Positions 644 through 24,999 of a DNA stretch of 41,568 nucleotides are shown one piece after another. This DNA is from Haliscomenobacter hydrossis DSM 1100. Lineage in GTDB: Bacteria > Bacteroidota > Bacteroidia > Chitinophagales > Saprospiraceae. The stretch spans positions 1-41,568 of the forward strand of contig CAMDWC010000002.1 of assembly GCA_945878825.1 (NCBI GenBank). Direction: 5' to 3'. The position numbers and the translations under genes are program-made. The notes under the pieces are model-generated. The model had not been told where the DNA came from. It saw only the letters and a program-made list of their open reading frames with translations, and searched no databases. How positions within the stretch are numbered: position 1 is the first letter of the stretch; each line of letters begins with the position of its first letter.

Positions 644-1240
644 ATGAATAGTAGTTTAGAAACAATGGATTTAGCTGCGGCAATTCGTTCTGGCGGTTTA
701 AAAAGAGAGCAAGCATTGTCAAGCCTGTATAATGTTACAGGATTGTTTTTTAAGATTAAGCAAATGGTTACTAATCATGGCGGTAATGAGGAAGATGCCA
801 GGGATGTGTTTCACGAAGGAATTATAACGATCGATCGAAAAATTCGACAAGATGAATATGAAGACCGTGGAACCATTGAAAGTTATCTTTTTGGTGTTTG
901 CCGATTCATTTGGTCAAACCAGCAAAGGAAAAATAAACGGGTGGAATTAAAGGAAGATTTTACCCCTTATGACCGATCTACCGGAGAAAACCCTTTAGAT
1001 ACCATGCTTGATAACGAAGGACAAAATATGGTTGCGACCTTATTCGGTCAGTTAGGCGAAAATTGCAGTAAAATATTATCCTTATGGAAATTATCCTACT
1101 CCATGAATGAAATAGCGGAGGAAATGGGACTTCCATCAGGCGATAATGCCAGAAAGCATAAATTTCGTTGTTATCAAAAATTACTTGGACTTATTGATAA
1201 TTCGCCGGAATTGGCAAACAACTTAAAAAATTTAGGATAA
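644..1240 (+). CDS. ECF-type RNA polymerase sigma factor (sigma-70 family)
   Basis: 198 aa; region-2-like segment (EEDARDVFHEGIITIDRKI...YLFGVCRFIWSNQQRK) and C-terminal region-4-like HTH (CSKILSLWKLSYSMNEIAEEMGLPSGDNARKHKFRCYQKL). Confidence 0.85.
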   Translation: MNSSLETMDLAAAIRSGGLKREQALSSLYNVTGLFFKIKQMVTNHGGNEEDARDVFHEGIITIDRKIRQDEYEDRGTIESYLFGVCRFIWSNQQRKNKRVELKEDFTPYDRSTGENPLDTMLDNEGQNMVATLFGQLGENCSKILSLWKLSYSMNEIAEEMGLPSGDNARKHKFRCYQKLLGLIDNSPELANNLKNLG

Positions 1241-2013
1241 TGAATACTTCTGAGTACACAGAAAAACTGATGGTATTGGCCAATAAAGAATTATTTGGCG
1301 ACGAAAAAATGCAATTTGAAAAGGAAATTCAAGAAAATCCAGCTTTAACGGAGGAATTTAATAAACATCTCCTTGCTCAAGATCTTTTGGAGGCTTTTAT
1401 TTCGCAGGATTTGAAAAAGAAATTAAGCGTTTTTCCATTGCCTCAAGAAAAACCTGAATCTTCCAGCGCATTTATTAGGAAATTAAATCCTTCCAGGTAC
1501 AAATTGGCTATTGCCGCTTCCGTTTCTTTAATTTTAGGGGTATCTACCTTTTTATTTATAGGAAATGAATTTTCATATCAGCATCTGGCCGATAATTATG
1601 TTCTGCAAATGCAGGAAGTTCGTGGAACGAATATGGAAGCTAATGATATTATAAAGAAAGCTTCTTCCTATATCTCAAATAACAAAAGTGAAATGGCCAT
1701 TACATTATTAACCTCTATTACACCAGACGATGATCGTTTTTTTCTAGGGCAACTTTTACTTGGAAATACATATTACCATACGGGTAAATTTTCAGCTGCT
1801 TCCTATGCGTTTATTCAAAGTTCAAAGTCAGCAGACGATGAGGTTAAATACCAAGGACAATATGGTTTCTTGTTATGTGAATTAAAGTTGAAATCTTGGT
1901 CGGAAGAAAACCAACGTTTGTTACTGGAACTATCTGAAAATGAACATTTTATAAACAAAAATGAAGCTGCAGATCTTTTACAAAAATTAAAGATTGCAAA
2001 ATATTTTAATTAA
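1240..2013 (+). CDS. Putative anti-sigma factor / single-TM protein with TPR-like C-terminus
   Basis: Start overlaps the sigma factor stop (TAATG). Soluble N-terminus, one TM (LAIAASVSLILGVSTFLFI), then TPR-like helices (LLLGNTYYHTGKFSAASYAFIQS). Confidence 0.6.
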   Translation: MNTSEYTEKLMVLANKELFGDEKMQFEKEIQENPALTEEFNKHLLAQDLLEAFISQDLKKKLSVFPLPQEKPESSSAFIRKLNPSRYKLAIAASVSLILGVSTFLFIGNEFSYQHLADNYVLQMQEVRGTNMEANDIIKKASSYISNNKSEMAITLLTSITPDDDRFFLGQLLLGNTYYHTGKFSAASYAFIQSSKSADDEVKYQGQYGFLLCELKLKSWSEENQRLLLELSENEHFINKNEAADLLQKLKIAKYFN

Positions 2014-2031
2014 TTTTTAAACGCAACCATT

Positions 2032-2634
2032 ATGAAAAAGGTAATATCCTACACCATACCCATTTTTATTTTTTTATTGACGTATCCATTTGTTGGATTT
2101 ACTCAGAAAAAGGAAAAAATGGACGGAGCTTTAAGGGCATTTATTGAAACTCCTTTTATGCAAAAATTTAAAGAATTACGATTAGAATCTGAAAATTTGG
2201 TGCTTACTTTCAAGGAGAACAAGCAAAATTATTCTGCTGCAGATATTAATAGGGTTAAAACAGCCTATCAAAAAACAGTAGATAAATTCAACACCCAACT
2301 ACTTGATATTAAAGCTGATTTCATGAATGAAAGAAAGCTTCAATATATACAGGATTTTCCAGAGGATTATACTAGTGGATTAACTTCAGATATCAATGAT
2401 TTGACCTCATTCTATCAAAGTAACCTTCAATTGACCATTCAGGATGTGACGGATGCCACTGTTGATGGAAATTCTTTACTTTCTCTTGTTGCAGAACTTG
2501 CCAAATTAGTTCCTGGTATGGTAACGAGTATCTCGGAATTAAGATCATCGGTCAAAAAATTTGGAGATACTTATTTGGAGGAAAAGTTAATTGTACCCTA
2601 CAAGTTTAAAACCTGGGAAGACATCAATTATTAA
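2032..2634 (+). CDS. Secreted hypothetical protein, paralog 1 of a tandem pair
   Basis: Signal peptide (MKKVISYTIPIFIFLLTYPFVGFTQ); aligns along its length with the next ORF (ALRAFI..MQKFKELRLESENLVLTFK / ALRKFV..MIKFKDLKREAENSVSTFK). Confidence 0.8.
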   Translation: MKKVISYTIPIFIFLLTYPFVGFTQKKEKMDGALRAFIETPFMQKFKELRLESENLVLTFKENKQNYSAADINRVKTAYQKTVDKFNTQLLDIKADFMNERKLQYIQDFPEDYTSGLTSDINDLTSFYQSNLQLTIQDVTDATVDGNSLLSLVAELAKLVPGMVTSISELRSSVKKFGDTYLEEKLIVPYKFKTWEDINY

Positions 2635-2655
2635 TCAATTTAATTTTCAAGCACT

Positions 2656-3609
2656 ATGAAAATGTTTATTTTTAGTCTCTTTGTTTTATTGAGCATCATA
2701 AATCATTCTAATGTAATAGCACAAGGAACCGCTGCTTCCAATAAGCAACTGGATCCCGCTCTGAGAAAATTTGTTCAATCTGAAATTATGATAAAATTTA
2801 AAGATTTGAAAAGAGAGGCAGAAAATAGTGTTTCTACCTTTAAATCGGAATTGAATAATTATAAGCCTGATCAAATTCAAAAAGTCAAAACTGGCTACGA
2901 AAAAACGGCCGATAGATTTAATCAGGAGCTAGAAAACATGAAGTTGGATTTTGTAAATAAGAAAAAACTTAAATATATTCTAGAATTTCCAAAAGATTAT
3001 GCTCGTTCTCTTGAATTGAATTTTAGAGAATTAGCTCAATATTATGCGGAAAACTTTCAACAACCTTTGCAGGATGTAAGACAATCCAAAGAAGACGGCG
3101 GTATTGTAATTGCTCTTTTCATGGAATTATTCAAATTAGTTCCAGAAGTTATCAACCATTTTAATGAAATGAAAGAAATGGCAGCCAAATATGATGATGC
3201 TTATCTTGAAAAATGGTTGGTTACCCCTTTTAAGTTTTTAACCTGGACAGAAATTCAGGCTGAATCTGGGTATATAAACATGAACAATAATAATAATAAT
3301 TTGTATAATAATGGGTTAAATACAAATCCATATCCTTATCCTGCTGCACAAGATCAGAATGCCACATTTCCTCCTGTTGCCAATCAGCCTGCAACCTCTG
3401 GTGCTGATACTGTCAAAACGAATGCACAAAATTGGTGGGAAACAAATAACACTTTGACTGTACCTACCAATGTAGATGGCTCTGGTTCCGTAAAAAATAA
3501 TAATGTAAAATCTGAGCCTGTTAAAACCAAAGCGCCCGATCCTTTTGCACCTGCTCCTGTTCAAAAAGATACCACAAAGATAAAATCATCCTCAGTCAAG
3601 GTAAATTAA
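2656..3609 (+). CDS. Secreted hypothetical protein, paralog 2, with Asn-rich/low-complexity C-terminal tail
   Basis: Signal peptide; homologous to 2032-2634; extra tail of about 115 aa beginning NMNNNNNNLYNNGLNTNPYPYP. Confidence 0.8.
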   Translation: MKMFIFSLFVLLSIINHSNVIAQGTAASNKQLDPALRKFVQSEIMIKFKDLKREAENSVSTFKSELNNYKPDQIQKVKTGYEKTADRFNQELENMKLDFVNKKKLKYILEFPKDYARSLELNFRELAQYYAENFQQPLQDVRQSKEDGGIVIALFMELFKLVPEVINHFNEMKEMAAKYDDAYLEKWLVTPFKFLTWTEIQAESGYINMNNNNNNLYNNGLNTNPYPYPAAQDQNATFPPVANQPATSGADTVKTNAQNWWETNNTLTVPTNVDGSGSVKNNNVKSEPVKTKAPDPFAPAPVQKDTTKIKSSSVKVN

Positions 3610-3616
3610 TGGGATT

Positions 3617-5149
3617 ATGTTAAGGTCTATTATTTTCATTATATTTATTTTATCCTTTAATGCATTCCTAAAAGCTCAGGATTATCCTACAGGACTTGAA
3701 TTTGAAGATGATCGCTATCAAAAGCAACCTTTGGTTTCTATGCAAAATGGTGGAAAATCAATTCCATCTTCTATAGATTTGTCAGTTTATGCTCCTTTTC
3801 CCAGACATCAGGGAAGTATTTTTAGTTGTGTCGGTTGGTCAGTGGGATACGGTGCATTAACTATAGAAAGAGCCATTCAAAATGGATGGACAGATCGCAT
3901 TAAAATTACAAATGAATCCTCTTCAGCGCTATTTCTTTACAACCAAATTAAAATTGGAAATTGTACCAGAGGTGCCAGAATATCCGATGCATTGAATTTT
4001 TTACAAGAAAAAGGAGATTGTTTGGCAAAATATTATGATAAAAATCTGGATGATTGTGAACAACCAACCACACCAGAATTGTTGAAAAATGCAAGTAATT
4101 TTAAAATTACAGATTATGCTGCGCTTTTCGATGGTGAACTTGATCAAAATGAAAAAATAAGTAGAATTAAAAGAGTACTCGCTCAAAATAAACCTGTCGT
4201 AATCGGTCTTCGAATTAAAAATAATTTTTACAAATTAGAGGATGCTGCTTTCTGGCATCCTGATTTGGGTGATACGACTTATGCTGGAGGACATGCGTTG
4301 GTCGTTGTGGGTTATGATGATAATTTAGCATCATTCCGGATTTTTAACAGCTGGGGTCCGAAATGGGGTAAAAATGGTATGATTTGGGTTAAATATAATG
4401 AATTTGCAAAGTATTGTAAATACGCTTATATCATTTATGTAGGACAAAATAAACCGATTCAAAATTTTGCTAATCTGTCTATCAAATCTTCGCCCGTAGT
4501 TGCTTCATCCAATGAAACATTTCCTGAGAGTAATTTGAAGGAGATACCCCTTAGAGAAATATCTGGAAAATTTAATTTCTTACGATTTACAGGACAATTT
4601 AATGGCTATAGTGAACCTGTTTTTGAAGAGGCAAAGGTCTTGGGTGAAAAGAATATTTATACCTTGTCCAATAGATTATGGAAAGTTGGAGACAAATTTC
4701 AATTACAGATAGTACCGACCTTTTCAAATGGTTATATCTATGTGTTAAGTGTTGATCCAACCAATAAAAAGGAAGTTCACTGGCCCAAAAATGAAATGTT
4801 TAATGAAAAATTTAGGGGTGATTATCAAACAGGGCTTTCTCCTTTTTCAGAAGGCGTAATATACATTCCAGATGCCCAAAGTGTATTAAAATTGGCATAT
4901 CCTGGCTCAGAACATTTGATTATTTTATTTTCAGAAAAGAAAATAAATCCTCCCTTTATGGAATATTTGTTAAAAAATCTTAATTTCAAGGAATCAGAAA
5001 ATGTATACCAATCCTTAACAGAAATATTGGGAGAACATCAAATTCCAAGATCCGATGTGCATTTTGATAAAGAATTGATGCAATTTAAGGCTATTACGAG
5101 AAATCCTGGAGCAATAATTCCTGTTGTATTAAAAATTTCAGTAAATTAG
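3617..5149 (+). CDS. Secreted papain-like (C1 family) cysteine protease with C-terminal DUF4384-like region
   Basis: Signal peptide; RHQGSIFSCVGW (candidate catalytic Cys71), GGHALVVVGYDD (His), FRIFNSWGPKWGKNGMIWVKY (Asn). C-terminal KFQLQIVPTFSNGYIYVLSVDP...PGSEHLIILFSEKKI resembles DUF4384. Confidence 0.85.
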   Translation: MLRSIIFIIFILSFNAFLKAQDYPTGLEFEDDRYQKQPLVSMQNGGKSIPSSIDLSVYAPFPRHQGSIFSCVGWSVGYGALTIERAIQNGWTDRIKITNESSSALFLYNQIKIGNCTRGARISDALNFLQEKGDCLAKYYDKNLDDCEQPTTPELLKNASNFKITDYAALFDGELDQNEKISRIKRVLAQNKPVVIGLRIKNNFYKLEDAAFWHPDLGDTTYAGGHALVVVGYDDNLASFRIFNSWGPKWGKNGMIWVKYNEFAKYCKYAYIIYVGQNKPIQNFANLSIKSSPVVASSNETFPESNLKEIPLREISGKFNFLRFTGQFNGYSEPVFEEAKVLGEKNIYTLSNRLWKVGDKFQLQIVPTFSNGYIYVLSVDPTNKKEVHWPKNEMFNEKFRGDYQTGLSPFSEGVIYIPDAQSVLKLAYPGSEHLIILFSEKKINPPFMEYLLKNLNFKESENVYQSLTEILGEHQIPRSDVHFDKELMQFKAITRNPGAIIPVVLKISVN

Positions 5150-5150
5150 A

Positions 5151-8100
5151 ATGCTCTTTCGCAAAATTATACTTGTTATGAAAAATTATTTTCTTTTTAC
5201 CTTCTTACTTTTTTTAAATACTTTATATGCACAACCAGCCCTTATAAGCTGGGAAGTAAAAGAAGGAAATAAAGGAGAGGATATTTTTACCAAATCCATT
5301 CAACTTTCGAATGGTAACCTTGCAGTCATTGGAAATCTTACCTCTCCTGATGGACTAAAAAGTTATGGCATCTTATCTCTCATTGATTTCAGTACGGGTA
5401 AAATTATTAAAAAAGCTACTTTCGGAAATCAAAATGATATTCACATTCATGATCTTTTAGAATTACCTGATGGAAATATTTTTGTGGTGGGTTATTCCAA
5501 TTTTAATAAAACTAATTATCCATGGCTAATAAAGTTAGATGCGTCAGGTAATAAAATACTGGAGAAAGTATTACCCCTGCCAGAGGGCTCTATTTTAACA
5601 TCCATACATTCAGATGTTGAAGCTGGATTTTATTTGACTGCAAAAATTACTAATGATGAAATTTTGCTGATTCATCTTAATAAAGATGTTGAGATTAATT
5701 GGAAAAAAGTAATTTCTTCAGGAACTTATGGTGATTTAAAGAAAGTATCTATTGGCCTGAATGGTTACATTTATCTTGGGGGTAATTCAATAAAAGGGGA
5801 TGGACAAAATGTAGGAGATGTTTGGATCACCTCTCTTGATAAAAATGGAAATGAATTATGGCATAAATTTTTTGGAGGCAAATTATGGGAAGAATTAAAT
5901 GATCTTATATTTCTACAAGATGGGTCTATTCTTTTTTGTGGTGAAACCAATTCCTTAGGAAATGGAAAACAAGATTTTTGGCTTGTAAAGTTAAGTCATA
6001 CTGGTTTTTTACAATGGGAAAGAACCTATGGTGGCAGAGAAGCTGATGTTGCCAAAACTATTTTACCTCTTTTTAATGGCAATATTTGGTTGGCGGGGTC
6101 AAGCTTGTCTTTATTAAATAAAAAAGGGGCTACAAAATTTGCAGCAAGAATTATTGAAATTGATGGCAGTGGAAACTTACAATGGGAAGCAGATTATGGA
6201 GGTGATAACAATGAGGATATTAATCATTTATTTCAAATTCATGATGGAAGTGTATTATTTTCAGGATGGACTGAATCAAATGTCCAAAGTCAAAAAGATG
6301 CCTGGATGGTTCGTTTTCCTGCTCCGGAAATGAACAGATTATTGGCAAAAGGTAATTTAAGGATAAATGAATCCAAAATATGGTTAAATACGCCCGACGG
6401 ACTTTTAAAGCCTAATAATCAATCGTATATTTCTTTTCAACTCAATAATCAGGAGGCTAATCAAGTGGAAAATATACGTGTTGATATCAAAATGATAGAT
6501 GGGCAAAAAGGTATTAATATTAATCAATCTGTATTTGTTCAACCGCTACAACCAAATATCAATAAGCAAATTAACATCCCAATTATGTCAGATGTTAATA
6601 TTGAATCAAAAGATAATTTACTCGAAATTAAGGTTTATTCTGGTTCAGACCTAATAAAGACGGTCACTGGGGCAGTGAAATCTTTGAATCCAAAGGCTGC
6701 AACGCTCCGATTTGTTAATACGAATACGGAAAAAGAGGGAGTGGATGAATTTAGCCCTCAAACGCTCTTCGTTGACATTCAAAATGATGGGGACATGATA
6801 GCTGCTGAGGTTCAAATTAATTTTATGCTACCAAAAGGAATCTTAGCTTTAACTTCTACTGAAGTCAAACTGGGTACAATCAATTCAAAGTCTCTTAAGA
6901 AAGCATCCTTTAGATTTCAAAAAACAGTTCAATTTGAAGGAAATGAAGTAGCCATTCAAATGAATGCAGTTGATAATCAATTTACCAGAATTTCTAAAAC
7001 GGTTACTTCCCGGTTTGATGTCATTACGGCTAGTCAATCCTCAAATATTATTGTTTTTAATAATCCCAAAGCTTCTCAGAAAAGGACAGATTGGAGTAAT
7101 CCAACCTTTAAACTTGAAGCTATGTTTGGAACCAGCAGTAATAATCTTAAACTTGGTGATGCCGTAGTTAAAATTAATGGAGTCATTCCTGAACGTTCTA
7201 AAATGGATGAGGAAAAACTAACTCCTCCAGCTTCAAACACTCAAGGAAATGCTATGAATTTTTATGATTATGAAAATGTAATCTCTCTGATTGAAGGAGA
7301 AAATAGGGTGTTGATTGAATTAGTTACACCTAATGGCGTCATTCAATCAAATGAAATGATTATCAACTATAAACCTAAACAACCTAATCTACATGTCTTA
7401 AGTATTGGTATTCCTCACAGAGATTTAAAATTTACTACCGTAGATGCTGAAAATTTTGCTAACGCCTTTCAAAATCAAACGGGTATGGATAAGGTATTTA
7501 ATAAGATTTATGTTGAAAAAAAGAATTCCAGGGAAAATACAAGGAACCTTGATATTCGTGCTGCCATGGAAGATCTTAAAAGAAGGTATAATACAGATTT
7601 GATTGGTGGAAAAATTAATAGGGAGGATGTTTTGATTCTTTTTATTTCGTCACATGGTAAGACAGATGATAATAACGACTTCAAAATATTAGCATCAGAT
7701 TACGATACTTATGGAGATGTTTCAAATATTGATTATAAAAGGGATATACTGGATATTTTAAATCAAATTGATTGTAAAAAATTTGTCTTTATTGACGCTT
7801 GTCATAGTGGTTCCGCTCAAGGAGCAAGATTAATTAACCAGGCCAGATTTGCACTTGAAGAAATTAATTCCTCATATACTGGCCTTAATGTGTTGACCAG
7901 TAGTCAGGTGGACGAATTGTCTTACGAGGACGATTCCTGGGGAAATGGCGCTTTTACAAAAGCTATTCTGGAAGCGTTTTCCGGAAAAACTTTAGCAAAC
8001 GGACTAAATCCTGATCCAGATGGGGATAAAATTATTCGTTTTGGAGAGTTATATGATTTTCTTCAAAAACGGGTTCCTGCCATGGTTATGGAAAAAAAGA

Positions 8101-8171
8101 AAAGTAAGCAAATGCCTGCAAAAATGTCTAAAGGATTGGGTGATAATATCCCGTTATTTATCCTTTATTAA
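5151..8171 (+). CDS. Secreted caspase-family (peptidase C14) protein with N-terminal beta-propeller-like repeats
   Basis: Signal peptide (possibly from the internal Met MKNYFLFTFLLFLNTLYAQ); repeats such as LPDGNIFVVGYSN..WLIKLDASGN and LQDGSILFCGETN..FWLVKLSHTG; C-terminal LILFISSHGKTDD (His835) and KFVFIDACHSGSAQG (Cys884). Confidence 0.88.
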   Translation: MLFRKIILVMKNYFLFTFLLFLNTLYAQPALISWEVKEGNKGEDIFTKSIQLSNGNLAVIGNLTSPDGLKSYGILSLIDFSTGKIIKKATFGNQNDIHIHDLLELPDGNIFVVGYSNFNKTNYPWLIKLDASGNKILEKVLPLPEGSILTSIHSDVEAGFYLTAKITNDEILLIHLNKDVEINWKKVISSGTYGDLKKVSIGLNGYIYLGGNSIKGDGQNVGDVWITSLDKNGNELWHKFFGGKLWEELNDLIFLQDGSILFCGETNSLGNGKQDFWLVKLSHTGFLQWERTYGGREADVAKTILPLFNGNIWLAGSSLSLLNKKGATKFAARIIEIDGSGNLQWEADYGGDNNEDINHLFQIHDGSVLFSGWTESNVQSQKDAWMVRFPAPEMNRLLAKGNLRINESKIWLNTPDGLLKPNNQSYISFQLNNQEANQVENIRVDIKMIDGQKGININQSVFVQPLQPNINKQINIPIMSDVNIESKDNLLEIKVYSGSDLIKTVTGAVKSLNPKAATLRFVNTNTEKEGVDEFSPQTLFVDIQNDGDMIAAEVQINFMLPKGILALTSTEVKLGTINSKSLKKASFRFQKTVQFEGNEVAIQMNAVDNQFTRISKTVTSRFDVITASQSSNIIVFNNPKASQKRTDWSNPTFKLEAMFGTSSNNLKLGDAVVKINGVIPERSKMDEEKLTPPASNTQGNAMNFYDYENVISLIEGENRVLIELVTPNGVIQSNEMIINYKPKQPNLHVLSIGIPHRDLKFTTVDAENFANAFQNQTGMDKVFNKIYVEKKNSRENTRNLDIRAAMEDLKRRYNTDLIGGKINREDVLILFISSHGKTDDNNDFKILASDYDTYGDVSNIDYKRDILDILNQIDCKKFVFIDACHSGSAQGARLINQARFALEEINSSYTGLNVLTSSQVDELSYEDDSWGNGAFTKAILEAFSGKTLANGLNPDPDGDKIIRFGELYDFLQKRVPAMVMEKKKSKQMPAKMSKGLGDNIPLFILY

Positions 8172-8183
8172 AATTATAGGAAG

Positions 8184-11100
8184 ATGAGATGTTTGAAATG
8201 GGTTTTAATTGGATTTATTTCTTTTTTAGGATTAAATTTATTTAGTCAAACTACTTCTTGTTTTTCTGTTACACCTATTACTAATCCAACTTGTCCTGGA
8301 TTAAACACAGGTAGCATATCTTTAAATATTTCTGGAGGCTCCGGCTCTTATTCTATTTTTTTTAACGGAAGTACCATAGCAATTACCCAAACTACCATTT
8401 CAAATTTGTCAGCAGGAGCTTATTCCATTAGAATTTTAGATACGAAGAACATAAATTGCGCCCAAACAATTTCTGCAACTATAAATAATTATATCGTTCC
8501 AACTGTCAGAATTACTGGAAACTATTTCTTTTGTTCGGGTCAAAATATTTCTTTAACAGCAACGTTAGATAAATTTTATTCATCCACTTATTCTTATGCC
8601 TGGAGTAATGGTAATTCAGGTTCAGCCATAAATATTTTTCCAACTTCAACGAGTACCTTTTCAGTTACAGTAACTGATGCCGCTGGTTGTGCGGTTACCT
8701 CTTCTAAATTAATTACTCAGCTTTCAAGTCCAGTCGTCAGTTTTTCTGAAAGTTACGTTAATTGTTCAGGTAAACCGGTGACGCTTGTCCCAATAATTAA
8801 TGGAGGAACGAGCCCTTATACTTATTCTTGGGATGGCGTTATTTCATCTACCGCAACTAAGACTGTTAATCCATCATCACCTCAAACTTATTGTCTTTCC
8901 GTAAGAGATGCCAATAATTGCACAGTCCCAGCCTGTGTTGCTGTAAATCAAAGGTCAATAAATGTGAACTTACCTACAGGTATTTCAAGGTGTCAGGGAG
9001 AAAGTTATACTATAGTACCAACGGTTTCCAATTTTTCAGGTGCCTTAAGTTATCAATGGAGTAATGGTGCTACTAGTTCAAACAATACAGTGTCCATTAA
9101 TGCAACGCAGGTTTATGCTGTTACGGTTTCAGATGCAACGGGTTGTATTGGTTCCGCTTCTACTTCCATAGAAATGAACGCAAATCCTTCGGTTAATTTA
9201 CCAACTGCTTTAGATGTTTGCCAATTTAATGCGGTAACGCTTGATACAAAATTAAGTACTACATCAAATATCTTTATATGGAGTACCGGAAGCACCACTT
9301 CAGCTATTACCTTAACCCCATCTAATTCGTCGAATGTGTCAGTAACTGTTACTAATGCTAATAAGTGTAAAGGGGTGGCAACGGTTAGTTTAAATGTGAA
9401 ATCTAATCCGTCGGTCTTTTTACCTAACTCTCAAATCACTTGTGCAAATACCCCATTTACATTATCTCCATTGGTTAGTGGTGGAACGCCTGGATATGCG
9501 TATTTATGGAATAATGGCTCAACAAATGCTACGTTAACCACCTCTTTATCCAGGTCTAGTGCCATTTCCCTCAGAGTGACAGATCAAAATGGGTGTGCTG
9601 CAAATTTGACGACTTCCATAACTGTTCGAAATAGTCCGACAGTGAGTATTTCCGGAACAACCCTAATTTGTCCCGGACAAACGATTTCTTTAAATACCAA
9701 TACAACAGGGGGAACCAGTCCTTATACTTACCAATGGAATACAAATTCCAATAATCAAAATATATCAGTTTCTCCAACATCCGTAACTACTTACACTGTT
9801 ACGGTAACTGACAATCTGGGTTGCAGCAATTCTTCAAGTATATCTATTTCTCCAACCAAATCCTTAAACGTTAACCTACCAACAGGCATATCAAAATGTC
9901 AGGGAGAAAGTTATACTATAGTACCAACGGTTTCCAATTTTTTCGGGGCCTTAAGTTATCAGTGGAGCAATGGGACTACAAGTTCAACAAATCCTGTGAC
10001 CATTAATGCCACACAGTCTTATGCTTTGACTGTTTCAGATGCAACGGGTTGTATTGGTACAGCATCTACCTCTATAGGAATGAATGCTAATCCTTCGGTT
10101 AATTTGCCAGCTACTTTAGATGTGTGTCAATTGAATGCAGTGACGCTTGATACAAAATTAAGTACTACATCAAATACCTTTATATGGAGTACCGGAAGCA
10201 CCGCTTCAGCAATTACCTTAACACCAACTACCTCAACGAACATTTCAGTAATTGTTACTAATGCCAATAACTGTAAAGCGGCGGCTGCCGTTAATATCAA
10301 TGTGAGATCTAATCCATCAGTTTCCTTGCCTACCTCCCAAATTACTTGTGCAAATACATCATTTACTTTAACGCCTGCAGTTAGAGGTGGAACGCCTGGA
10401 TATTCGTATTTATGGAGTAATGGCTCAACAAATGCTACGTTAACCACCTCTTTATCTGTGTCTAGTGCCATTTCCCTCAGAGTGACAGATCAAAATGGTT
10501 GTGCTGCAACAGCATTATCAGGTATAACACTGATTCCTAATCCAACCATTTCTATATCAGGTATTTTTGAAATTTGTCCTGGTCAATCAACCACCTTAAC
10601 AGCACTGCCTTCAGGCGGAACCTTACCCTATTCATATAAATGGAATACGGGTGACACCAGCAAATTAATTAAAACAATGCCATTAATACCAACTACTTAT
10701 AAAATAATATTGACAGATAAAAATAATTGCGTTGGCGAAGGATTGATTCTGGTATCAACAACAAAAAATATATCAGTCACAATACCTTCCGATGTAAGTA
10801 TTTGTCTAGGTGATTCCATTATTTTAAAATCCATCATTGGAACGAATGGTGGAGATTTAAACTATTTATGGAACAATGGAACCAGTGCAGAATCATTATT
10901 AGTGAAGCCATTAAGTAAATCTAAATTTTCCTTACTCGTAAAAGATAAACTCGGATGCTCAGGCTTTGCTGAAACAACGGTAAATGTAAATATGCCACCC
11001 AAAGCAACCTTACCTGCCATCATTAATGCTTGTTTGGCTGATAGCGTAAAAGTAAATTTAAGTGATATTTCAGGGTCAGGTCCTTTTAATTACAACTGGT

Positions 11101-14012
11101 CAAATGGAAAAACAACTGCTGAATCAACCTATTTTGTTGATTCAGATAAAATTATTATTACAACAATTACAGATATAAATCAATGTAAAGCCATTATTTC
11201 TGCTAAAATTAAAGCGAATGAAAAACCCATTTTAGAACTTAATCCTAAGCATACCTTTTGTGTAAATGAATCTGTCAGAATAACTCCAAAAGTAACAGGT
11301 GGCTTGACTCCTTACTCCTATTTATGGAGTAACGGCAATACATCCGCAGAATTTAATACTCTTTTAATTGATAATACTAACTTAACGTTGGTTGTTTCAG
11401 ATAAAACGGGTTGTTCAGATAAAAAATCTACTTTTATTGAATTAAAAAAAGAGATTCCCCAAATATTTCTTCCAGATACTATTCGTAGTTGTATAGGTAC
11501 CGAAATATTAATTAATCCTGGTTTTCAGGATAAAGTGGGAATAAGTAGCTATCAATGGTCGGATGGACAGACCAAATCACAGATAATTAAAAAGGTACTT
11601 AATGCTATTACTATGAGATTGAAAGTAATGAATCTGATAGGTTGCATGGCAGTAGATAGTTTATTAATCTTGCCATTTAATAAACCAATTATTGTTTTGC
11701 CTTCTTTATTTGAGTTATGTAAATCAGATAAAGTATTCATAGAAATTCCTTCAGACGCTAATAATAGAACGACTTATCAATGGGATACTGGAGAAAAATC
11801 TAATAGAATTGAAGTTTTTGCGAATGAATCAAAATTATTAAAAGTATGGGCTACTAATTTGGAAGGATGTAAGGATTCAGCCACCACTCAATTAAAAATT
11901 TATGAAAATCCGGCAATTAATATAATTGGGAAAAAGGAAAATTGTAGTAATACGCCTTCGTCATTTACAGTGGATATTTTATCAGGAATTTCACCGTACC
12001 AAATAAAATGGGCGAGTGGTGAGTCTACAGTCAGGGTAGATTATCCTGCAGTGGATTCTATTCAAAAAGTGGGTGTTGAAGTTACTGATGTTAAAGGTTG
12101 TCGAACTTTTTCTACTTTACCTCTTACGTTGTTAAAAAGTCCTGATATTCAAATTCTCAATGAGTTTTTTGTATGTGAAAATGAAAAAAAAGCTTTAAAC
12201 CCAATGGTGACTTTGGGAAAAAAACCATATATCTATAGATGGAGTACCAATGAAAGTGGTCCAGGCATCATCGTAAAAAATGGCTTTTATACCTTTTCTG
12301 TTACGGATGCTAATGGATGTTCGAATCAGAAAAATATTAAAGTAACTCCGATAAAACCTCCGGAATTATATGTTTCTTCATTAAACCAACCCTCTTGTAA
12401 TCTTCCAAATGGAAAAATTTTACTTCAGGTTAAAGGTACTTCTCCAACAGAAGTAACATGGTCTAATGGGCAAAAGGGATTATTACTTGAAAATGCTTAT
12501 CCGGGTAAATATGTAGCTGCAGCCATTGACAGTAATAACTGTTTTGGTGAATTATCCCAAAATCTGGTATGTAATTGTGAAGCTAAAGTAGGGGTTATGG
12601 ATGTGAATTTGGTTTCTATATGTAAAAATGAGGTCAGACAATCTAAATACGATGCAAGCAATCAGAAATTAGGTCTTAATAATGGTCGTTGGTTTATTTT
12701 ACATAATAGTCCGGGTATAAATTTAGGGAATCAGATTTTAAGTTTGGATACCACTGGAAATATAAAATATTATCCAGGAATGATAGCAGGAGAAACTTAT
12801 TATATTTCAGCTGCTATAGGTAGAAAGTTATCAGATGGTTCATTAGATTTAAATGATCCATGTCTTTCTATTGCTCCAGGCACTCCTGTTAAATTGCTGG
12901 CAACACCTGAAACACCCATTAAAATAGCCGTATCTGACACCTTGGTTTGTCCCGGTAGCAGTATTACATTGCAAACAAATAAACAGGATAATGGCTTCAT
13001 TTATATTTGGCAAACGCCTAAGGGATTTATTAATACCTTAACTCCTTCCCTTACTATTCCTAAATTTGAAAAAAAGGATATTGGTAATTATTATGTGCGT
13101 TTAAATAGTGAAAAGTGCACGTCAGATGCTTTTGGACCTATACCAATAAATTTTTCTAAAGATATAAATGAAATTTATACAGAACCTGATAAATCAGTTT
13201 GTGGTAAAGATTCCGTTTTTATCAGAGCCAATATGCCTTCAAATGCCATTGGAAAATGGTTAACAAGTAGCTCAGCAATTATTGGTTCCCCTCAAGACGA
13301 ATATACCATGGTTAAAGGTTTGGTTCCGGGGAGGAATAACTTTTTATGGACCGTCGTTACAAGAAATTGTATTATAACAGATTCTCTTTTAGTTTATTAT
13401 GTTCCAAAGCCAATATTAAAGAACGATACGGTAAATTTAGATGATGTAAAAAATACGGCATTGTTTGATTTTCTTGAGAATGATGATTTGAATGGTATTC
13501 CTCCCTCATTTTTAAAAATTAATTTAATATCAAAACCATCCGCTGGAAACCTGATTATTAACAAAGAAGGTTTTTTTACTTATTCCCGCGATCCAAATAT
13601 TTCGGAAGATCAATCTTTTAAATTTGTATACGAAGTATGCAATACAGATACCACGGGGAATTGCTCCAATAATTGTGATCGCGCGGAAGTTATATTAAAT
13701 GTAACTTATAATTTAAGGACATTAATTTATCCTACGATTGGATTAAGGCCAAATTATAATAATCCTGTATGGAAGTTTGAAGCTGCAAGACCTATGTACA
13801 GTGCTAAATTAAATATTTTCGATAGGTGGGGTAAAGTAGTTTTTAAAGAAGAATTCTTACAATTACAAAAAGGAGAAATTGTTGGAAATTGGAATGGTTT
13901 ATCTAAAAATCAACTTAAATTACCTGCAGGTGCTTACTATTTTTCTTTAATTGGAGAAATTGAAAATAATGAAAAAGTAGTACAAAATGGTATCATTTAT
14001 TTGATGGAATAA
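8184..14012 (+). CDS. Giant SprB-like repeat adhesin with gliding-motility-associated / T9SS type B C-terminal domain
   Basis: 1942 aa; signal peptide; N-terminal SprB-like repeat (CPGLNTGSISLNISGGSGSYSI...LSAGAYSIRILDTKNINC); many about 75-aa Ig-like repeats (C..x..YxWSNG..DxxGC); FDFLENDDLNG cadherin/Ig-like domain; C-terminal LNIFDRWGKVVFKEEF...WNGLSKNQLKLPAGAYYFSLIGEIENNEKVVQNGIIYLM. Confidence 0.9.
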   Translation: MRCLKWVLIGFISFLGLNLFSQTTSCFSVTPITNPTCPGLNTGSISLNISGGSGSYSIFFNGSTIAITQTTISNLSAGAYSIRILDTKNINCAQTISATINNYIVPTVRITGNYFFCSGQNISLTATLDKFYSSTYSYAWSNGNSGSAINIFPTSTSTFSVTVTDAAGCAVTSSKLITQLSSPVVSFSESYVNCSGKPVTLVPIINGGTSPYTYSWDGVISSTATKTVNPSSPQTYCLSVRDANNCTVPACVAVNQRSINVNLPTGISRCQGESYTIVPTVSNFSGALSYQWSNGATSSNNTVSINATQVYAVTVSDATGCIGSASTSIEMNANPSVNLPTALDVCQFNAVTLDTKLSTTSNIFIWSTGSTTSAITLTPSNSSNVSVTVTNANKCKGVATVSLNVKSNPSVFLPNSQITCANTPFTLSPLVSGGTPGYAYLWNNGSTNATLTTSLSRSSAISLRVTDQNGCAANLTTSITVRNSPTVSISGTTLICPGQTISLNTNTTGGTSPYTYQWNTNSNNQNISVSPTSVTTYTVTVTDNLGCSNSSSISISPTKSLNVNLPTGISKCQGESYTIVPTVSNFFGALSYQWSNGTTSSTNPVTINATQSYALTVSDATGCIGTASTSIGMNANPSVNLPATLDVCQLNAVTLDTKLSTTSNTFIWSTGSTASAITLTPTTSTNISVIVTNANNCKAAAAVNINVRSNPSVSLPTSQITCANTSFTLTPAVRGGTPGYSYLWSNGSTNATLTTSLSVSSAISLRVTDQNGCAATALSGITLIPNPTISISGIFEICPGQSTTLTALPSGGTLPYSYKWNTGDTSKLIKTMPLIPTTYKIILTDKNNCVGEGLILVSTTKNISVTIPSDVSICLGDSIILKSIIGTNGGDLNYLWNNGTSAESLLVKPLSKSKFSLLVKDKLGCSGFAETTVNVNMPPKATLPAIINACLADSVKVNLSDISGSGPFNYNWSNGKTTAESTYFVDSDKIIITTITDINQCKAIISAKIKANEKPILELNPKHTFCVNESVRITPKVTGGLTPYSYLWSNGNTSAEFNTLLIDNTNLTLVVSDKTGCSDKKSTFIELKKEIPQIFLPDTIRSCIGTEILINPGFQDKVGISSYQWSDGQTKSQIIKKVLNAITMRLKVMNLIGCMAVDSLLILPFNKPIIVLPSLFELCKSDKVFIEIPSDANNRTTYQWDTGEKSNRIEVFANESKLLKVWATNLEGCKDSATTQLKIYENPAINIIGKKENCSNTPSSFTVDILSGISPYQIKWASGESTVRVDYPAVDSIQKVGVEVTDVKGCRTFSTLPLTLLKSPDIQILNEFFVCENEKKALNPMVTLGKKPYIYRWSTNESGPGIIVKNGFYTFSVTDANGCSNQKNIKVTPIKPPELYVSSLNQPSCNLPNGKILLQVKGTSPTEVTWSNGQKGLLLENAYPGKYVAAAIDSNNCFGELSQNLVCNCEAKVGVMDVNLVSICKNEVRQSKYDASNQKLGLNNGRWFILHNSPGINLGNQILSLDTTGNIKYYPGMIAGETYYISAAIGRKLSDGSLDLNDPCLSIAPGTPVKLLATPETPIKIAVSDTLVCPGSSITLQTNKQDNGFIYIWQTPKGFINTLTPSLTIPKFEKKDIGNYYVRLNSEKCTSDAFGPIPINFSKDINEIYTEPDKSVCGKDSVFIRANMPSNAIGKWLTSSSAIIGSPQDEYTMVKGLVPGRNNFLWTVVTRNCIITDSLLVYYVPKPILKNDTVNLDDVKNTALFDFLENDDLNGIPPSFLKINLISKPSAGNLIINKEGFFTYSRDPNISEDQSFKFVYEVCNTDTTGNCSNNCDRAEVILNVTYNLRTLIYPTIGLRPNYNNPVWKFEAARPMYSAKLNIFDRWGKVVFKEEFLQLQKGEIVGNWNGLSKNQLKLPAGAYYFSLIGEIENNEKVVQNGIIYLME
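8991..11708 (+). repeat. Higher-order tandem repeat within adhesin gene: about 3 units, period exactly 906 bp (302 aa = 4 x about 75.5 aa)
   Basis: Anchors: tgtcagggag at 8991 and 9897, and tgt of aligned ICLGD codon at 10803 (spacing 906, 906); cctggatat at 9489 and 10395 (906). Long identical tracts between units 1 and 2, e.g. tgtcagggagaaagttatactatagtaccaacggtttccaatttt. Confidence 0.85.
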
Positions 14013-14017
14013 TTAGT

Positions 14018-14998
14018 ATGATAAAGGAATTATCAAACAGGTATGCGCGCATACTTTTCATCTTTTTTTTATTCTTGGCATCTGAAATAGATGGTCAACA
14101 ACTTACGCCATTCACATTATATAGAGACCATTGGAACCTTATAAATCCTGCGGCAGTTTCAAATAACAATATTCTGGCTGAATATCCCTTTACAGTTTCA
14201 GCTAGTTCTCGATTTCAATATCTTGGCATTGGACTAAATATAAAGGATGCTCCAAATACTAATGTTCTGAATGCTGAATGGGTAAATGATAATTTAAACA
14301 GCACTTTTGGACTACAACTGGTTTCTGATAAAATAGGTTTATTAGGTAATAATGGGGTTTATCTGCAATATGCCTATAAACTTAGGTTGAGTAGAAGAGA
14401 AGAGAAATTTTTAAGTTTTGGGATTTCTGCCGGTGCGATAAACTATTTTTCAAAAATAAATGGCGCTGATTTTCCCATCGCAGAACCTGACATCATTCCT
14501 ACCTCCACCTATTTACCTGATATGAATATTGGGATTTATTACAGAAATGAAGATAAATATTATTTAGGACTTTCTTTTCCCCAATTTATGAATTTAACTG
14601 CAAAGTTTAAATCAATGGATTCGGGGAAGGAATTATTTTTCATCAAGAGATTCAGACATGTTTATGCTGTTGGCGGGTTATACCTACCTTTTGATTTTTT
14701 TGGATTAGGTGATGAATCAGCCATTTTGGACCTATCCGCATGGATTCGATATTTGCCTGGTCAACTTCCTGTAATGGATGGGAATTTAAGGTATCAGCAC
14801 AATCAAACTTTTTGGTTCGGTGCAGGTGTTTCATCTAGTGCAACTTCTCATTTTGAGGTTGGATTTCTTGCGGGAAAAACGATAGGATTGTTTGATAATC
14901 AAATTAAAATTTCCATTGCTTACGATGTCCCCTTTGGTAAATCGATATATCAATTGGGAAGTTCCATAGAGGCATCTTTATCTTATAGTTGGTATTGA
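14018..14998 (+). CDS. PorP/SprF family type IX secretion system outer-membrane protein
   Basis: QQLTPFTLYRDHWNLINPAAVSNNN start, beta-rich outer-membrane pattern, adjacent to a T9SS type B-tagged giant protein. Confidence 0.88.
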   Translation: MIKELSNRYARILFIFFLFLASEIDGQQLTPFTLYRDHWNLINPAAVSNNNILAEYPFTVSASSRFQYLGIGLNIKDAPNTNVLNAEWVNDNLNSTFGLQLVSDKIGLLGNNGVYLQYAYKLRLSRREEKFLSFGISAGAINYFSKINGADFPIAEPDIIPTSTYLPDMNIGIYYRNEDKYYLGLSFPQFMNLTAKFKSMDSGKELFFIKRFRHVYAVGGLYLPFDFFGLGDESAILDLSAWIRYLPGQLPVMDGNLRYQHNQTFWFGAGVSSSATSHFEVGFLAGKTIGLFDNQIKISIAYDVPFGKSIYQLGSSIEASLSYSWY

Positions 14999-15040
14999 AA
15001 ATCTGGAGATGATAAATAATTTTATCACCTTCAGATTTTC
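14997..15040. terminator. Bidirectional hairpin terminator between convergent genes
   Basis: gaaaatctggagatgataaa-taat-tttatcaccttcagattttc: 20-bp arms, 18/20 Watson-Crick, 4-nt loop. Confidence 0.75.
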
Positions 15041-15054
15041 TCTTAAAGTACCAA

Positions 15055-21534: not shown

Positions 21535-22809
21535 TTAGAATAATCGCTGAATGAATCTTTTATTCTGTGTGATAATTCTCGCCGTACCTGAAAGTTCCTT
21601 TTTTGTCGATACTTTAAAACCAGTTGATGTAACCAGTCCATTTCTAAAATAAACGGTTACCGGAGAAACTAACTTTTTATTTTCCTCTAAAGCTATACTT
21701 GAACTCGTTGCCACTTTTCCTTGTATGATGCCATATTTTGAAGATGGATAACTATTTAATTTGACTAAAACCGTTTGATTCTTTCGGATGTTCCCACTTT
21801 CAGTAAATGGTATATTCATGATTCCTTTCATTTTATTGGATTGCGGAGGAATAACCATCAATAAGGGTTCGTCTTTATTAACATATTGGCCTGATTTAAG
21901 AAATTTGTTCGTAACCTGAACGGTACCATTTGAGGGTGAATTGATTAAATGTAAGGAAATCCATTGGGATGCGTTAGATTTAAGTTGCACAAATGCTGCA
22001 TTCATTTCTAAAAGTGCAACCTCCCTACCCTTTTCACTTCCAGCTTTTAAGTTAATTAAATCTGACTTTAAATTACTAATTTTAAATTGTTTATCTTTAA
22101 TTTCGGCTTCTGTTGCGTTTAAATTAGTAGCAAGAACGGTTAATTTATCTTTTGTTTTGTTTAATTCAGATTGCGATAATTTATCCATTTTCACCATGGC
22201 TTCTTCATTTTTCATCTGAATCTGTATATTTTCAATCTGAGTTGACAAATTTTCTTTAAGATTCAATGAATATTGAATCCCATTTTCTAAAGATATGATT
22301 TGCCTTTTTTTTTCTGTTTTATTTGCTATTTCTACCCCTTCATTTGTCCTTAAATTATATTGTTTTTGTTTATCTAAAAATTGAAATAAATATTTTTGGA
22401 GTTCACCGATACTATAGTTTTCAGTCAATGAAAAGGATATAATAGAGCTCTGATTTGTGAGTTTAATCCTTTGTAATTTTTCATAAAGAGACAGAACATC
22501 TAAATAATCAGCTTCAGAATTATAAGAAATTAATAATTGTCCTTTCCTTACCCTTTGATTGTGCTTGGTATGCAACTCATTTATATAGCCTGATTTGGGT
22601 GATATTAGTTTTGTTGGTGGGTCATTAAATGACACAATGATTTCATTTTCAACAACATCAGGGTATTGAATCCAGTAGGACAGCCAGATTAAAAGGACGA
22701 TAACAATTAAAAAAATTAAGGTACCAAATCTTAGTATCCATCCAGGAGGAGTTCCTAAAATTTCCTGAATTTCTTCATTTCGATAGTCTTTATTTTTTTC
22801 ACTTTTCAT
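21535..22809 (-). CDS. HlyD family secretion protein (membrane fusion/adaptor protein)
   Basis: N-terminal TM, LISPKSGYINELHTKHNQRVRKGQLLISY (biotinyl-like motif), coiled coil, SPSNGTVQV...VNKDEPLLMVIPP. Confidence 0.88.
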   Translation of the reverse strand: MKSEKNKDYRNEEIQEILGTPPGWILRFGTLIFLIVIVLLIWLSYWIQYPDVVENEIIVSFNDPPTKLISPKSGYINELHTKHNQRVRKGQLLISYNSEADYLDVLSLYEKLQRIKLTNQSSIISFSLTENYSIGELQKYLFQFLDKQKQYNLRTNEGVEIANKTEKKRQIISLENGIQYSLNLKENLSTQIENIQIQMKNEEAMVKMDKLSQSELNKTKDKLTVLATNLNATEAEIKDKQFKISNLKSDLINLKAGSEKGREVALLEMNAAFVQLKSNASQWISLHLINSPSNGTVQVTNKFLKSGQYVNKDEPLLMVIPPQSNKMKGIMNIPFTESGNIRKNQTVLVKLNSYPSSKYGIIQGKVATSSSIALEENKKLVSPVTVYFRNGLVTSTGFKVSTKKELSGTARIITQNKRFIQRLF

Positions 22810-24999
22810 TTAAAATCCTAGTTCCAAAGTATTTTTAACTAATTGATAATAGGCGCCTCTGACAAAAGTCAGTTCTTCATGTGATCCGCATTCAAGCATT
22901 TCCCCATCCTCCATAACAACAATTTGGTCAGCTTTTAAAACGGTGCTTAAGCGATGTGAAACGATAATAATGGTTTTATTTTTAAAAGCAGCCTTTATAT
23001 TTTCCAAAATTAACATTTCATTGTAGGTATCAAGAGATGAGGTAGCCTCATCAAAGAAGAGAATATCGGGTTCCTTATAAACTGCTCTGGCTATAAGAAT
23101 TCTCTGCTTCTGCCCTTGACTAAGGCCCTGTCCCTCGGGGCCAATAATAGTGTTATAACCCAGAGGTAAATTCTCAATATAAGATTGTAAGTTAGCTAAT
23201 TTTGCAGAAAATTGAAGTTTGCTCTTATCAATAATTTCTTCGCCCAGAGCAATATTTTTGGCAATGCTATCACTAAAAAGATGACCATCTTGCATAACCA
23301 CGCCAATACTACTACGCCACAATCTGGGATTTATAGATAATAAATTTATTTCACCTAATTTTATATTTCCTTCGGTTGGCTTATAAAGATTAAGTAAAAT
23401 TTTTAATAACGTAGTTTTTCCACTACCACTTGGACCAAGGATAGCTGTTATTTTACCTTTAGGAATTACTAGATTTATATTCTTAATATTTGGCGAAGCA
23501 TTGACACCAGCATAGCTAAAATTTACATTCTCCAAAACGATATTTCCTTCAAAAGGAAGGGTATTAGTATTTTCCTCAATAATTGTTTCATTATCTTTAA
23601 GGTGTATCTCACCAATTCTTTCCAGGCTGATTTTAGCATCTTGCATAGATTTTAAAAATTCTGTTAATTGATTAATTTGAGTATTCAGTTGACCAATGAT
23701 ATACTGAATAGCTACTAACATGCCTAAAGTCAATGTTGCATTCAGAACTCCCTTTGCAACCAAATAAATAATAAATAGATTTTTTGTTTCATTAAAAAAT
23801 AAGGCGCCAGCTCTCTGAACTTGTTCAAGTTTTAGATTTTCTGCTTCTGTATTAAATAATTTTGCTTGAATTTTTTCCCAAGACCATCTTTTTAACTTTT
23901 CAGCATTAAATAACTTAATATCCTGCATTCCCGAAATCATTTCATTGATGCTATTTTGATTATCGCTGTTGTATTCAAATCTTTTTATGTCTAGGCTTTT
24001 TCTCCATTTCATGAAGCCTAAAACCCAAACAATATTTAGTAATGATCCTATGATAAAAATAGTGAAAATAGCTTTATTCCAAAACAAAAGTACCACTCCA
24101 AAAGCCAAGAGATTTAGCAATGAAAAGATAGAAATCAAAGAAGTAGAACTTAAAAACTTTTGTACTCTTTCGTGGTCATTAAAACGTTGAATTAAATCTC
24201 CAGGCAATTTTGTATCAAAAAACCTAAATGGAAGTTTTGTTAACTTTATAAGAAAATCAGATAATAAACTAATATTTACTCTACTACCTACATGTAAAAT
24301 ATTCCAGTTTCTAATAAATTCAACAGATATCTGGCTGATAAATAAAATAAGTTGAGCAATAAGTACTAATGAAATAAAAGATAAATCGTTATTATTGATA
24401 CCTATATCTACAACACTTTTTATAAAAAACGGAAACAGTAGTTGGAGGGTGCTTCCTAAGAATAGTCCTATAATTATCTGAAAAATAAGTGCCTTGTATT
24501 GGTAAAAATAATTTAGCACATATTGCCAGCTACCCTTTTTAGGTTCCTTTCCATTGAAAATATAAAAATTTGGCGTACTCTGACAGATTAAAACGATGCC
24601 TGAATTTTCAACCGTTGCATCCGCCCCAATCCATTTGGTCAGAAATTCGTCATTATTTAGTTTATACTTTCCTTTTGCTGGGTCTGCAATCCACACATTA
24701 GTTGAATCCTGGTGATAAACGACAACAAAATGATTACTTCCCCAGTTTATTATACAGGGTTTAGGTATAACATCTTGTAATTGAATAATATCTGCTTCGA
24801 CAGCTAAGGTTTTAAGGCCTATTAATTCAGCAGCTTCGCTGAGGTCTAAAAGTGAAACACCATCTTTTCCTGTATTACTTATCTCCCTTAAATAATCTAA
24901 TGAATAGTACCGTCCATAAAACCTTGCAATCATGCGCAAGCAAGTTGATCCGCAATCCATTGCCTCAAGTTGTGGATAGAATGGAAACCGTTTCGGCAT
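22810..24999 (-). CDS. Peptidase C39-containing ABC transporter (bacteriocin/RiPP exporter type)
   Basis: N-terminal C39: FPFYPQLEAMDCGSTCLRMIARFYG and NHFVVVYHQ; TM domain; ABC domain GPSGSGKTTLLK, LSQGQKQRILIARA, DILFFDEATSSLD. Confidence 0.92.
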   Translation of the reverse strand: MPKRFPFYPQLEAMDCGSTCLRMIARFYGRYYSLDYLREISNTGKDGVSLLDLSEAAELIGLKTLAVEADIIQLQDVIPKPCIINWGSNHFVVVYHQDSTNVWIADPAKGKYKLNNDEFLTKWIGADATVENSGIVLICQSTPNFYIFNGKEPKKGSWQYVLNYFYQYKALIFQIIIGLFLGSTLQLLFPFFIKSVVDIGINNNDLSFISLVLIAQLILFISQISVEFIRNWNILHVGSRVNISLLSDFLIKLTKLPFRFFDTKLPGDLIQRFNDHERVQKFLSSTSLISIFSLLNLLAFGVVLLFWNKAIFTIFIIGSLLNIVWVLGFMKWRKSLDIKRFEYNSDNQNSINEMISGMQDIKLFNAEKLKRWSWEKIQAKLFNTEAENLKLEQVQRAGALFFNETKNLFIIYLVAKGVLNATLTLGMLVAIQYIIGQLNTQINQLTEFLKSMQDAKISLERIGEIHLKDNETIIEENTNTLPFEGNIVLENVNFSYAGVNASPNIKNINLVIPKGKITAILGPSGSGKTTLLKILLNLYKPTEGNIKLGEINLLSINPRLWRSSIGVVMQDGHLFSDSIAKNIALGEEIIDKSKLQFSAKLANLQSYIENLPLGYNTIIGPEGQGLSQGQKQRILIARAVYKEPDILFFDEATSSLDTYNEMLILENIKAAFKNKTIIIVSHRLSTVLKADQIVVMEDGEMLECGSHEELTFVRGAYYQLVKNTLELGF

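Follow-up and report, generated by a model that had tools for sequence, protein, structure and literature searches.

Comparison of gene neighbourhoods across genomes shows that an ECF sigma factor, a transmembrane anti-sigma, a papain-like (C1) protease and a caspase homologue (C14), the last two predicted to be exported, are inherited together as a unit, with a family of helical proteins, a SprB-like surface protein and a PorP protein as optional members. A second association was also systematic: putatively exported TPR-CHAT proteins, one of which is encoded divergently from the sigma factor in the Haliscomenobacter hydrossis sequence studied here, are linked to this subfamily of sigma/anti-sigma pairs. 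We propose, with moderate confidence, that these genes form an ECF-controlled exported protease system that is switched by TPR-CHAT cleavage of the anti-sigma.

Organization of the operon and its products

The window, meaning the whole 41,568-nt stretch that was analyzed, is one entire contig (G000:C2), the start of which falls inside the divergent gene. Eight successive + strand ORFs span positions 644-14998, with junctions of -1, 18, 21, 7, 1, 12 and 5 bp, and the block is closed by a hairpin that folds far more stably than shuffled sequences. These features confirm the eight-gene run with short gaps and a strong final hairpin that was described in the initial annotation of this DNA, and profile searches upheld its domain assignments (ECF sigma, C1, C14, SprB repeats with CHU_C, and PorP/SprF). 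The features are as follows:

<1-503, -, TPR-CHAT lipoprotein gene, 5' end (167 aa); the CHAT domain lies past the contig end
611-632, +, conserved element GGAACATT-N10-TAAA, 12-33 nt 5' of the sigma start codon
644-1240, +, ECF sigma factor (TIGR02937)
1240-2013, +, transmembrane anti-sigma: ~85 aa cytoplasmic part, one transmembrane segment (TM; 87-109), TPR-like periplasmic part
2032-2634, +, all-helical protein, family A, predicted exported; no known family
2656-3609, +, paralogue of 2032-2634 (~41% identity over 177 aa) with a low-complexity C-terminal tail
3617-5149, +, papain-like (C1) protease, predicted exported, with a DUF4384-like C-terminal region (PF00112, PF14326)
5151-8171, +, caspase homologue (C14), predicted exported: propeller-like N-terminal part, C-terminal caspase domain
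8184-14012, +, SprB-repeat surface protein, 1942 aa, with a T9SS type B (CHU_C) C-terminus (PF13573, PF13585)
14018-14998, +, PorP/SprF family outer-membrane protein (TIGR03519)
14992-15050, +, terminator hairpin that ends the operon and also faces a convergent transporter gene (-22.2 kcal/mol, z = -5.85)

The sigma factor matched the ECF sigma-70 profile TIGR02937 at 45.5 bits (cut-off 42.9, E 6e-12) and shares 43-44% identity with its counterpart in another genus that has the same locus type. Its neighbour has the layout of a DegS-RseA-type anti-sigma, a single-pass protein with a periplasmic domain encoded next to its sigma factor, and hydropathy placed the single TM at about the same position in all 16 homologues inspected, including that of the window. 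An AF2 model of the anti-sigma contains helical hairpins at residues 134-232, a block with pLDDT mostly 70-87, and has low confidence overall (pLDDT 61), the putative sigma-binding region included.

Just upstream of the sigma start codon, the GGAACATT-N10-TAAA element is nearly invariant in genus mates. A related form, GGACATT-N(7-9)-TAAAnnCA, occurs 25-31 nt before the sigma gene at eight loci in other genera; in all, ten sigma loci, window included, carry a GGACATT-type or GGAACATT..TAAA form 25-33 nt before the ATG; GGGACATT alone occupies the same position at one further locus of another genus. The strict form had one other match in 597 kb of locus sequence, and this was not upstream of any gene. 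Apart from sigma genes, the motif occurred genome-wide at about control or background level, with no enrichment, and so gave no basis for defining a regulon. The element could be an autoregulatory promoter and could equally be a leader or operator element; it lies so near the ATG that the promoter reading implies a very short leader, being too close for an ordinary promoter with a leader. The self-regulation proposed in the initial annotation is thus compatible with the element, which falls short of proof.

Both proteases appear to be catalytically intact. The C1 protein matched PF00112 (1.2e-9) and, weakly, PF14326 (0.011) in Pfam, retains its Cys/His/Asn triad (QGSIFSCVGW, GHAL and NSWG) and had 3ois as its best PDB match (5e-15). 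Only ~50 aa separate its signal peptide from the catalytic cysteine, which leaves no room for a full propeptide. The caspase matched PF00656 at 758-994 (5.1e-11), has an intact His/Cys dyad (FISSHG and IDACHSG) as expected of the C14 p20 domain, and its N-terminal region matched the CylK propeller (7e-9). Hydropathy indicated Sec signal peptides on both proteins, and Pfam and NCBIfam scans found a T9SS C-terminal sorting domain on neither. Export is therefore indicated only as far as the periplasm, and secretion of the two proteases by T9SS is not.

The proteins encoded at 2032-2634 and 2656-3609 matched nothing in Pfam or NCBIfam above the cut-offs, and their paralogy, as first described, holds. 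An AF2 model of the former is all helix (pLDDT 78), and searches of the PDB by sequence and by fold gave nothing significant (best fold E 0.24). At the end of the operon, the 1942 aa protein matched PF13573 in six stretches (5.5e-17) and PF13585 over its cut-off (CHU_C, 3.9e-9), a T9SS cargo sorting domain; its identity as a SprB-like adhesin stands, with its length in place of the earlier label of giant. The adjoining protein belongs to the PorP/SprF family (TIGR03519, 6.9e-32, 111.1 bits against a cut-off of 90.55; domain match 1.5e-29).

Conservation and recurrence of the gene set

In all six genus mates the genes, 72-96% identical, follow one another as in the window up to the contig ends; the contigs extended to the SprB-like gene in five and to PorP in four, and the divergent gene was seen in five. 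Outside the genus, five genomes from four genera (loci L116-L120) share the order sigma > anti-sigma > C1 > caspase > PorP, with no helical protein and no adjoining CHAT gene. An ABC-transporter-like gene follows PorP, with a 237 aa hypothetical gene or similar sometimes intervening at the contig edge. Divergent to sigma in all five is a 270 aa gene, the products of which are 38-59% identical among these loci and almost without annotation, and a SprB-like gene comes next in four (the L120 locus ends there). The combination of genes seen in the window is thus recurrent. Their PorP is only ~28% identical to that of the window, and the recurrence may reflect either shared descent or repeated assembly. 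The L116-L120 loci (for example, L117:470-10260) represent a second, possibly complete version of the system.

Another genus (G020) has a divergent TPR-CHAT gene followed by sigma, anti-sigma, a helical protein, a subtilase, a Kazal-like protein, a trypsin-like protein with a T9SS tail and C1; next comes a counterpart of the first 700 residues of the window caspase, the caspase domain of which follows at C8:16145. Between its helical protein and C1 (L026:6977-12323), where the trypsin-like protein also carries a P-domain, this sigma-headed locus brings together several protease classes and a putative inhibitor.

Conservation of the block in the whole genus, and the presence of its core outside the genus as well, go beyond chance. 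This agrees with the initial annotation in so far as it had proposed an extracytoplasmic module; the module is conserved and is not an accidental gene run. That annotation had named rare co-occurrence of the orthologues in other genomes as what would speak against it. Co-occurrence was instead found both for sigma, anti-sigma, C1, caspase and PorP with a divergent SprB-like gene in other genera and for the C1 type, which was present in 27 of the 30 genomes with the helical family versus 15 of the 168 without it (p = 2e-19).

Among 198 genomes of the bacterial family, those 30 alone had the helical family, which was absent from all 397 other genomes of a phylum-wide sample. Of 36 helical-protein loci, 17 had a caspase gene no more than 12 kb away, on the same strand in 17/17, and 21 had C1 within 6 kb, on the same strand in 19; contig ends truncate several of these loci, and the G020 C1 lies just past the 6 kb limit. 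The helical gene often sits <300 bp before C1 on the same strand, and, beyond the same-genus copies and the L116-L120 loci, ~30 loci connect the family with C1 and caspases of the types found in the window. This tight placement, together with the ~50-residue stretch before the catalytic cysteine of C1, suggests that the helical proteins are a dedicated chaperone, inhibitor or substrate of C1.

C1 and caspase were on the same strand at 18/18 loci where both were recognized, with further cases besides, and many C1/caspase loci had no nearby sigma. Matches to the C1 type at L093 and L094 were rejected as they correspond to the DUF4384-like region of proteins without the C1 triad. These two loci (L094:8107-13066 and L093:5758-12125) are fused or swapped variants, with a caspase-FISUMP fusion and DUF4384-like C-termini lacking that triad; one of the DUF4384-like proteins weakly resembles an M43 metallopeptidase.

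A rival explanation, close to the initial annotation in having the proteases act on or with a surface adhesin, is a T9SS surface-maturation operon. The SprB-like adhesin, exported with PorP, would be matured or shed by C1 and the caspase, sigma would be an ordinary envelope-stress regulator and the CHAT gene would be incidental. The SprB-like and PorP genes do lie inside the operon in the window and in one other genome (G164), and other genera have PorP inside and a SprB-like gene beside it. However, the pair is optional across loci rather than a fixed component: among 27 C1/caspase loci with at least 12 kb of context, SprB was nearby in 7 and PorP in 5. Given also that neither protease has a T9SS signal and that CHAT is linked far beyond chance (see below), we regard this explanation as improbable; we obtained no support for the two proteases acting on the adhesin, and the initial interpretation as a whole was partly supported.

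The TPR-CHAT gene and its link to the anti-sigma

The N-terminus of the window TPR-CHAT protein, MNRCFLNFDKNLWISLILLLNLVCISYSC-, resembles a lipoprotein signal. Full copies of the divergent gene in genus mates encode a 916 aa TPR-CHAT protein with a lipoprotein-like signal, and one copy that was scanned contained a CHAT domain (PF12770, 4.8e-49) with an intact dyad (HLATH/VVLSAC). Every same-genus copy long enough to judge is predicted to be an exported TPR-CHAT protease, and there was no second CHAT gene in either of two genus mates searched (G001 and G005). The gene had first been recorded as a divergent TPR gene, which was right as to repeats and orientation and missed the protease domain because the contig end cuts the gene.

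Across 12 related genomes, a CHAT gene lay within 6 kb of 37 of the 57 sigma genes of the subfamily (matches of at least 50 bits), compared with 1.36 expected from CHAT density. Gene order in 25 sigma/anti-sigma/CHAT sets was divergent in 9, codirectional in 8 and convergent in 8; such near-equal proportions indicate that the link has been kept through rearrangement and is not a single inherited arrangement. By hydropathy, 27 of 32 CHAT proteins had a signal-like N-terminus and at least 16 had a C-terminal TM directly after the CHAT domain; the dyad pattern was detected in only 24. Most sigma-linked CHAT proteins therefore look periplasmic, so that the protease and the TPR-like part of the anti-sigma would share the same compartment.

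We also compared raw distances among 23 non-redundant modules using Mantel tests. Distances between CHAT proteins correlated with distances between the periplasmic parts of the anti-sigmas (r = 0.49, p = 0.0002), and the partial correlation was 0.42 given sigma and 0.39 given the anti-sigma N-terminal part; between CHAT and sigma, no correlation was left once the periplasmic part was taken into account (-0.09). This correlational pattern is what would be expected if CHAT acts directly on the periplasmic part of the anti-sigma, and it could partly reflect linkage and differences in noise between short and long domains. Together, these results suggest that the divergent CHAT protease probably belongs to the control system.

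Four genomes (G155, G020, G182 and G022) each contain ~20-30 CHAT genes and 11-21 subfamily sigma genes; candidate protease/anti-sigma/sigma pairs have expanded there into large sets of paralogues.

Beyond the co-inheritance described above, we infer the cleavage, the regulon, its substrates and the signal along the following lines. The cytoplasmic part of the anti-sigma would hold sigma at the inner membrane, and the TPR superhelix of the TPR-CHAT protein, probably a lipoprotein in the genus of the window and often C-terminally membrane-anchored in relatives, would sense an envelope or surface cue. The CHAT domain would then cleave the anti-sigma within its TPR-like periplasmic part, much as RseA is cut by DegS, and the freed sigma would act at its own promoter to transcribe the operon. 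C1 and the caspase would be exported, with the helical proteins as likely dedicated C1 partners, and these proteases would process surface proteins; the SprB-like/PorP pair would be the surface-displayed output in the lineage of the window.

Alternatively, activation might take another route, via a general site-1 protease or a ligand on the periplasmic TPR-like domain, with CHAT as a co-regulated effector that forms an exported proteolytic cascade with caspase and C1, still within one regulon. All three are cysteine proteases that occur together, S8, S1 and Kazal-like proteins join them at the same locus in another genus, and the sigma > anti-sigma > C1 > caspase > PorP loci manage without an adjoining CHAT. 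On the other hand, CHAT accompanies sigma/anti-sigma even in modules that lack a neighbouring C1 or caspase gene and tracks the periplasmic part of the anti-sigma best, and we consider this alternative rather unlikely. The main weakness of the preferred reading of CHAT as the switch lies in the L116-L120 loci, which mean that it is not the sole activator; there, the exported caspase or another protease might activate sigma.

Comparison with known systems

The closest parallel is the type III-E Craspase/CASP system (Cas7-11, Csx29 TPR-CHAT, Csx30 and CASP-sigma), in which a TPR-CHAT protein cuts an ECF-sigma inhibitor in the cytoplasm with a guide RNA, a cleavage proposed to relieve sigma inhibition (PMC10028731). 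As in that system, a TPR-CHAT protein with an intact dyad is encoded beside an ECF sigma and its inhibitor, the full CHAT domain here being that of genus mates and not of the window. In contrast to Craspase, CHAT is predicted to be exported and the inhibitor is a single-pass membrane anti-sigma; the window contains no CRISPR-like array, the scanned neighbours no Cas gene, and the CHAT proteins carry predicted signal peptides. Activation by a cytoplasmic guide RNA is therefore impossible here. DegS-RseA-RpoE and RsiW-type systems likewise combine a membrane anti-sigma that has a periplasmic domain with a membrane-tied, periplasm-facing candidate for the first cut. The DegS-type enzyme, however, is a PDZ serine protease, whereas the candidate here is a CHAT protease of caspase-like type in which the TPR region would act as sensor, and relatives of the window organism have many paralogous pairs per genome.

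Other systems share parts of the operon. Metacaspase operons with sigma-70 genes are noted in Myxococcus and others in a survey of metacaspases and orthocaspases (PMC3501461), the accessible part of which describes no arrangement with C1/DUF4384, a transmembrane anti-sigma, CHAT, SprB or PorP. EACC2/caspase systems have ECF sigma and TPR genes alongside (PMC8195603), and caspases do occur with these in some EACC1/EACC2 neighbourhoods. There, caspase is paired with EACC components, whereas here caspase, C1 and CHAT are predicted to be exported, and the window caspase scored 45 bits against an EACC1-type model (cut-off 140). The SprB repeats, CHU_C signal and adjoining PorP/SprF gene recall the T9SS gliding pair SprB/SprF, except that the 1942 aa protein ends a sigma-headed protease operon.

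Caspase domains also occur in conflict systems (PMC8195603), and these bacteria are rich in caspases, with 28 metacaspases counted for Haliscomenobacter hydrossis in the same metacaspase survey (PMC3501461). A conflict or programmed-death function against phage, predators or kin is nevertheless very improbable: PADLOC matched no known anti-phage defence system, there was no recognized NTPase switch or intracellular effector, the proteases have signal peptides and the window lacks a CRISPR-like array.

More broadly, we tentatively suggest that exported TPR-CHAT proteins are a widespread, CRISPR-independent class of proteases dedicated to the first cut of membrane anti-sigmas in Saprospiraceae-type bacteria, that a genome may contain many insulated protease/anti-sigma/sigma pairs, each in control of a separate surface or protease programme, and that the Craspase triad of TPR-CHAT, Csx30 and sigma is a cytoplasmic relative recruited to CRISPR. 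If so, CHAT, known to regulate sigma via Craspase, would represent a common envelope-to-transcription signal route, and the signal-specific pairs, of which some genomes have around ten or more, would be amenable to study in a cultured organism. Exported bacterial caspases, the role of which is largely unknown, would also gain a natural context through their ties to one type of C1 protease, to a helical partner specific to the system and to surface adhesins. Within an incomplete coverage of the literature, we found no published link of an exported CHAT to a membrane anti-sigma, or of C1 to caspase, in these bacteria.

Elsewhere in the window, positions 21535-24999 (-) encode two proteins that typically pair in peptide export, a C39-peptidase ABC exporter and an HlyD-like membrane-fusion protein, and the ORF at positions 30788-33880 (+), 1030 aa long, matched nothing in Pfam at 1e-5; Rfam gave no matches in the window. 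A few short repeat runs were found outside it, besides a likely CRISPR array (22-mers with a ~73 nt period) at ~12.9-13.6 kb of L088, a CHAT-less helical-protein locus.
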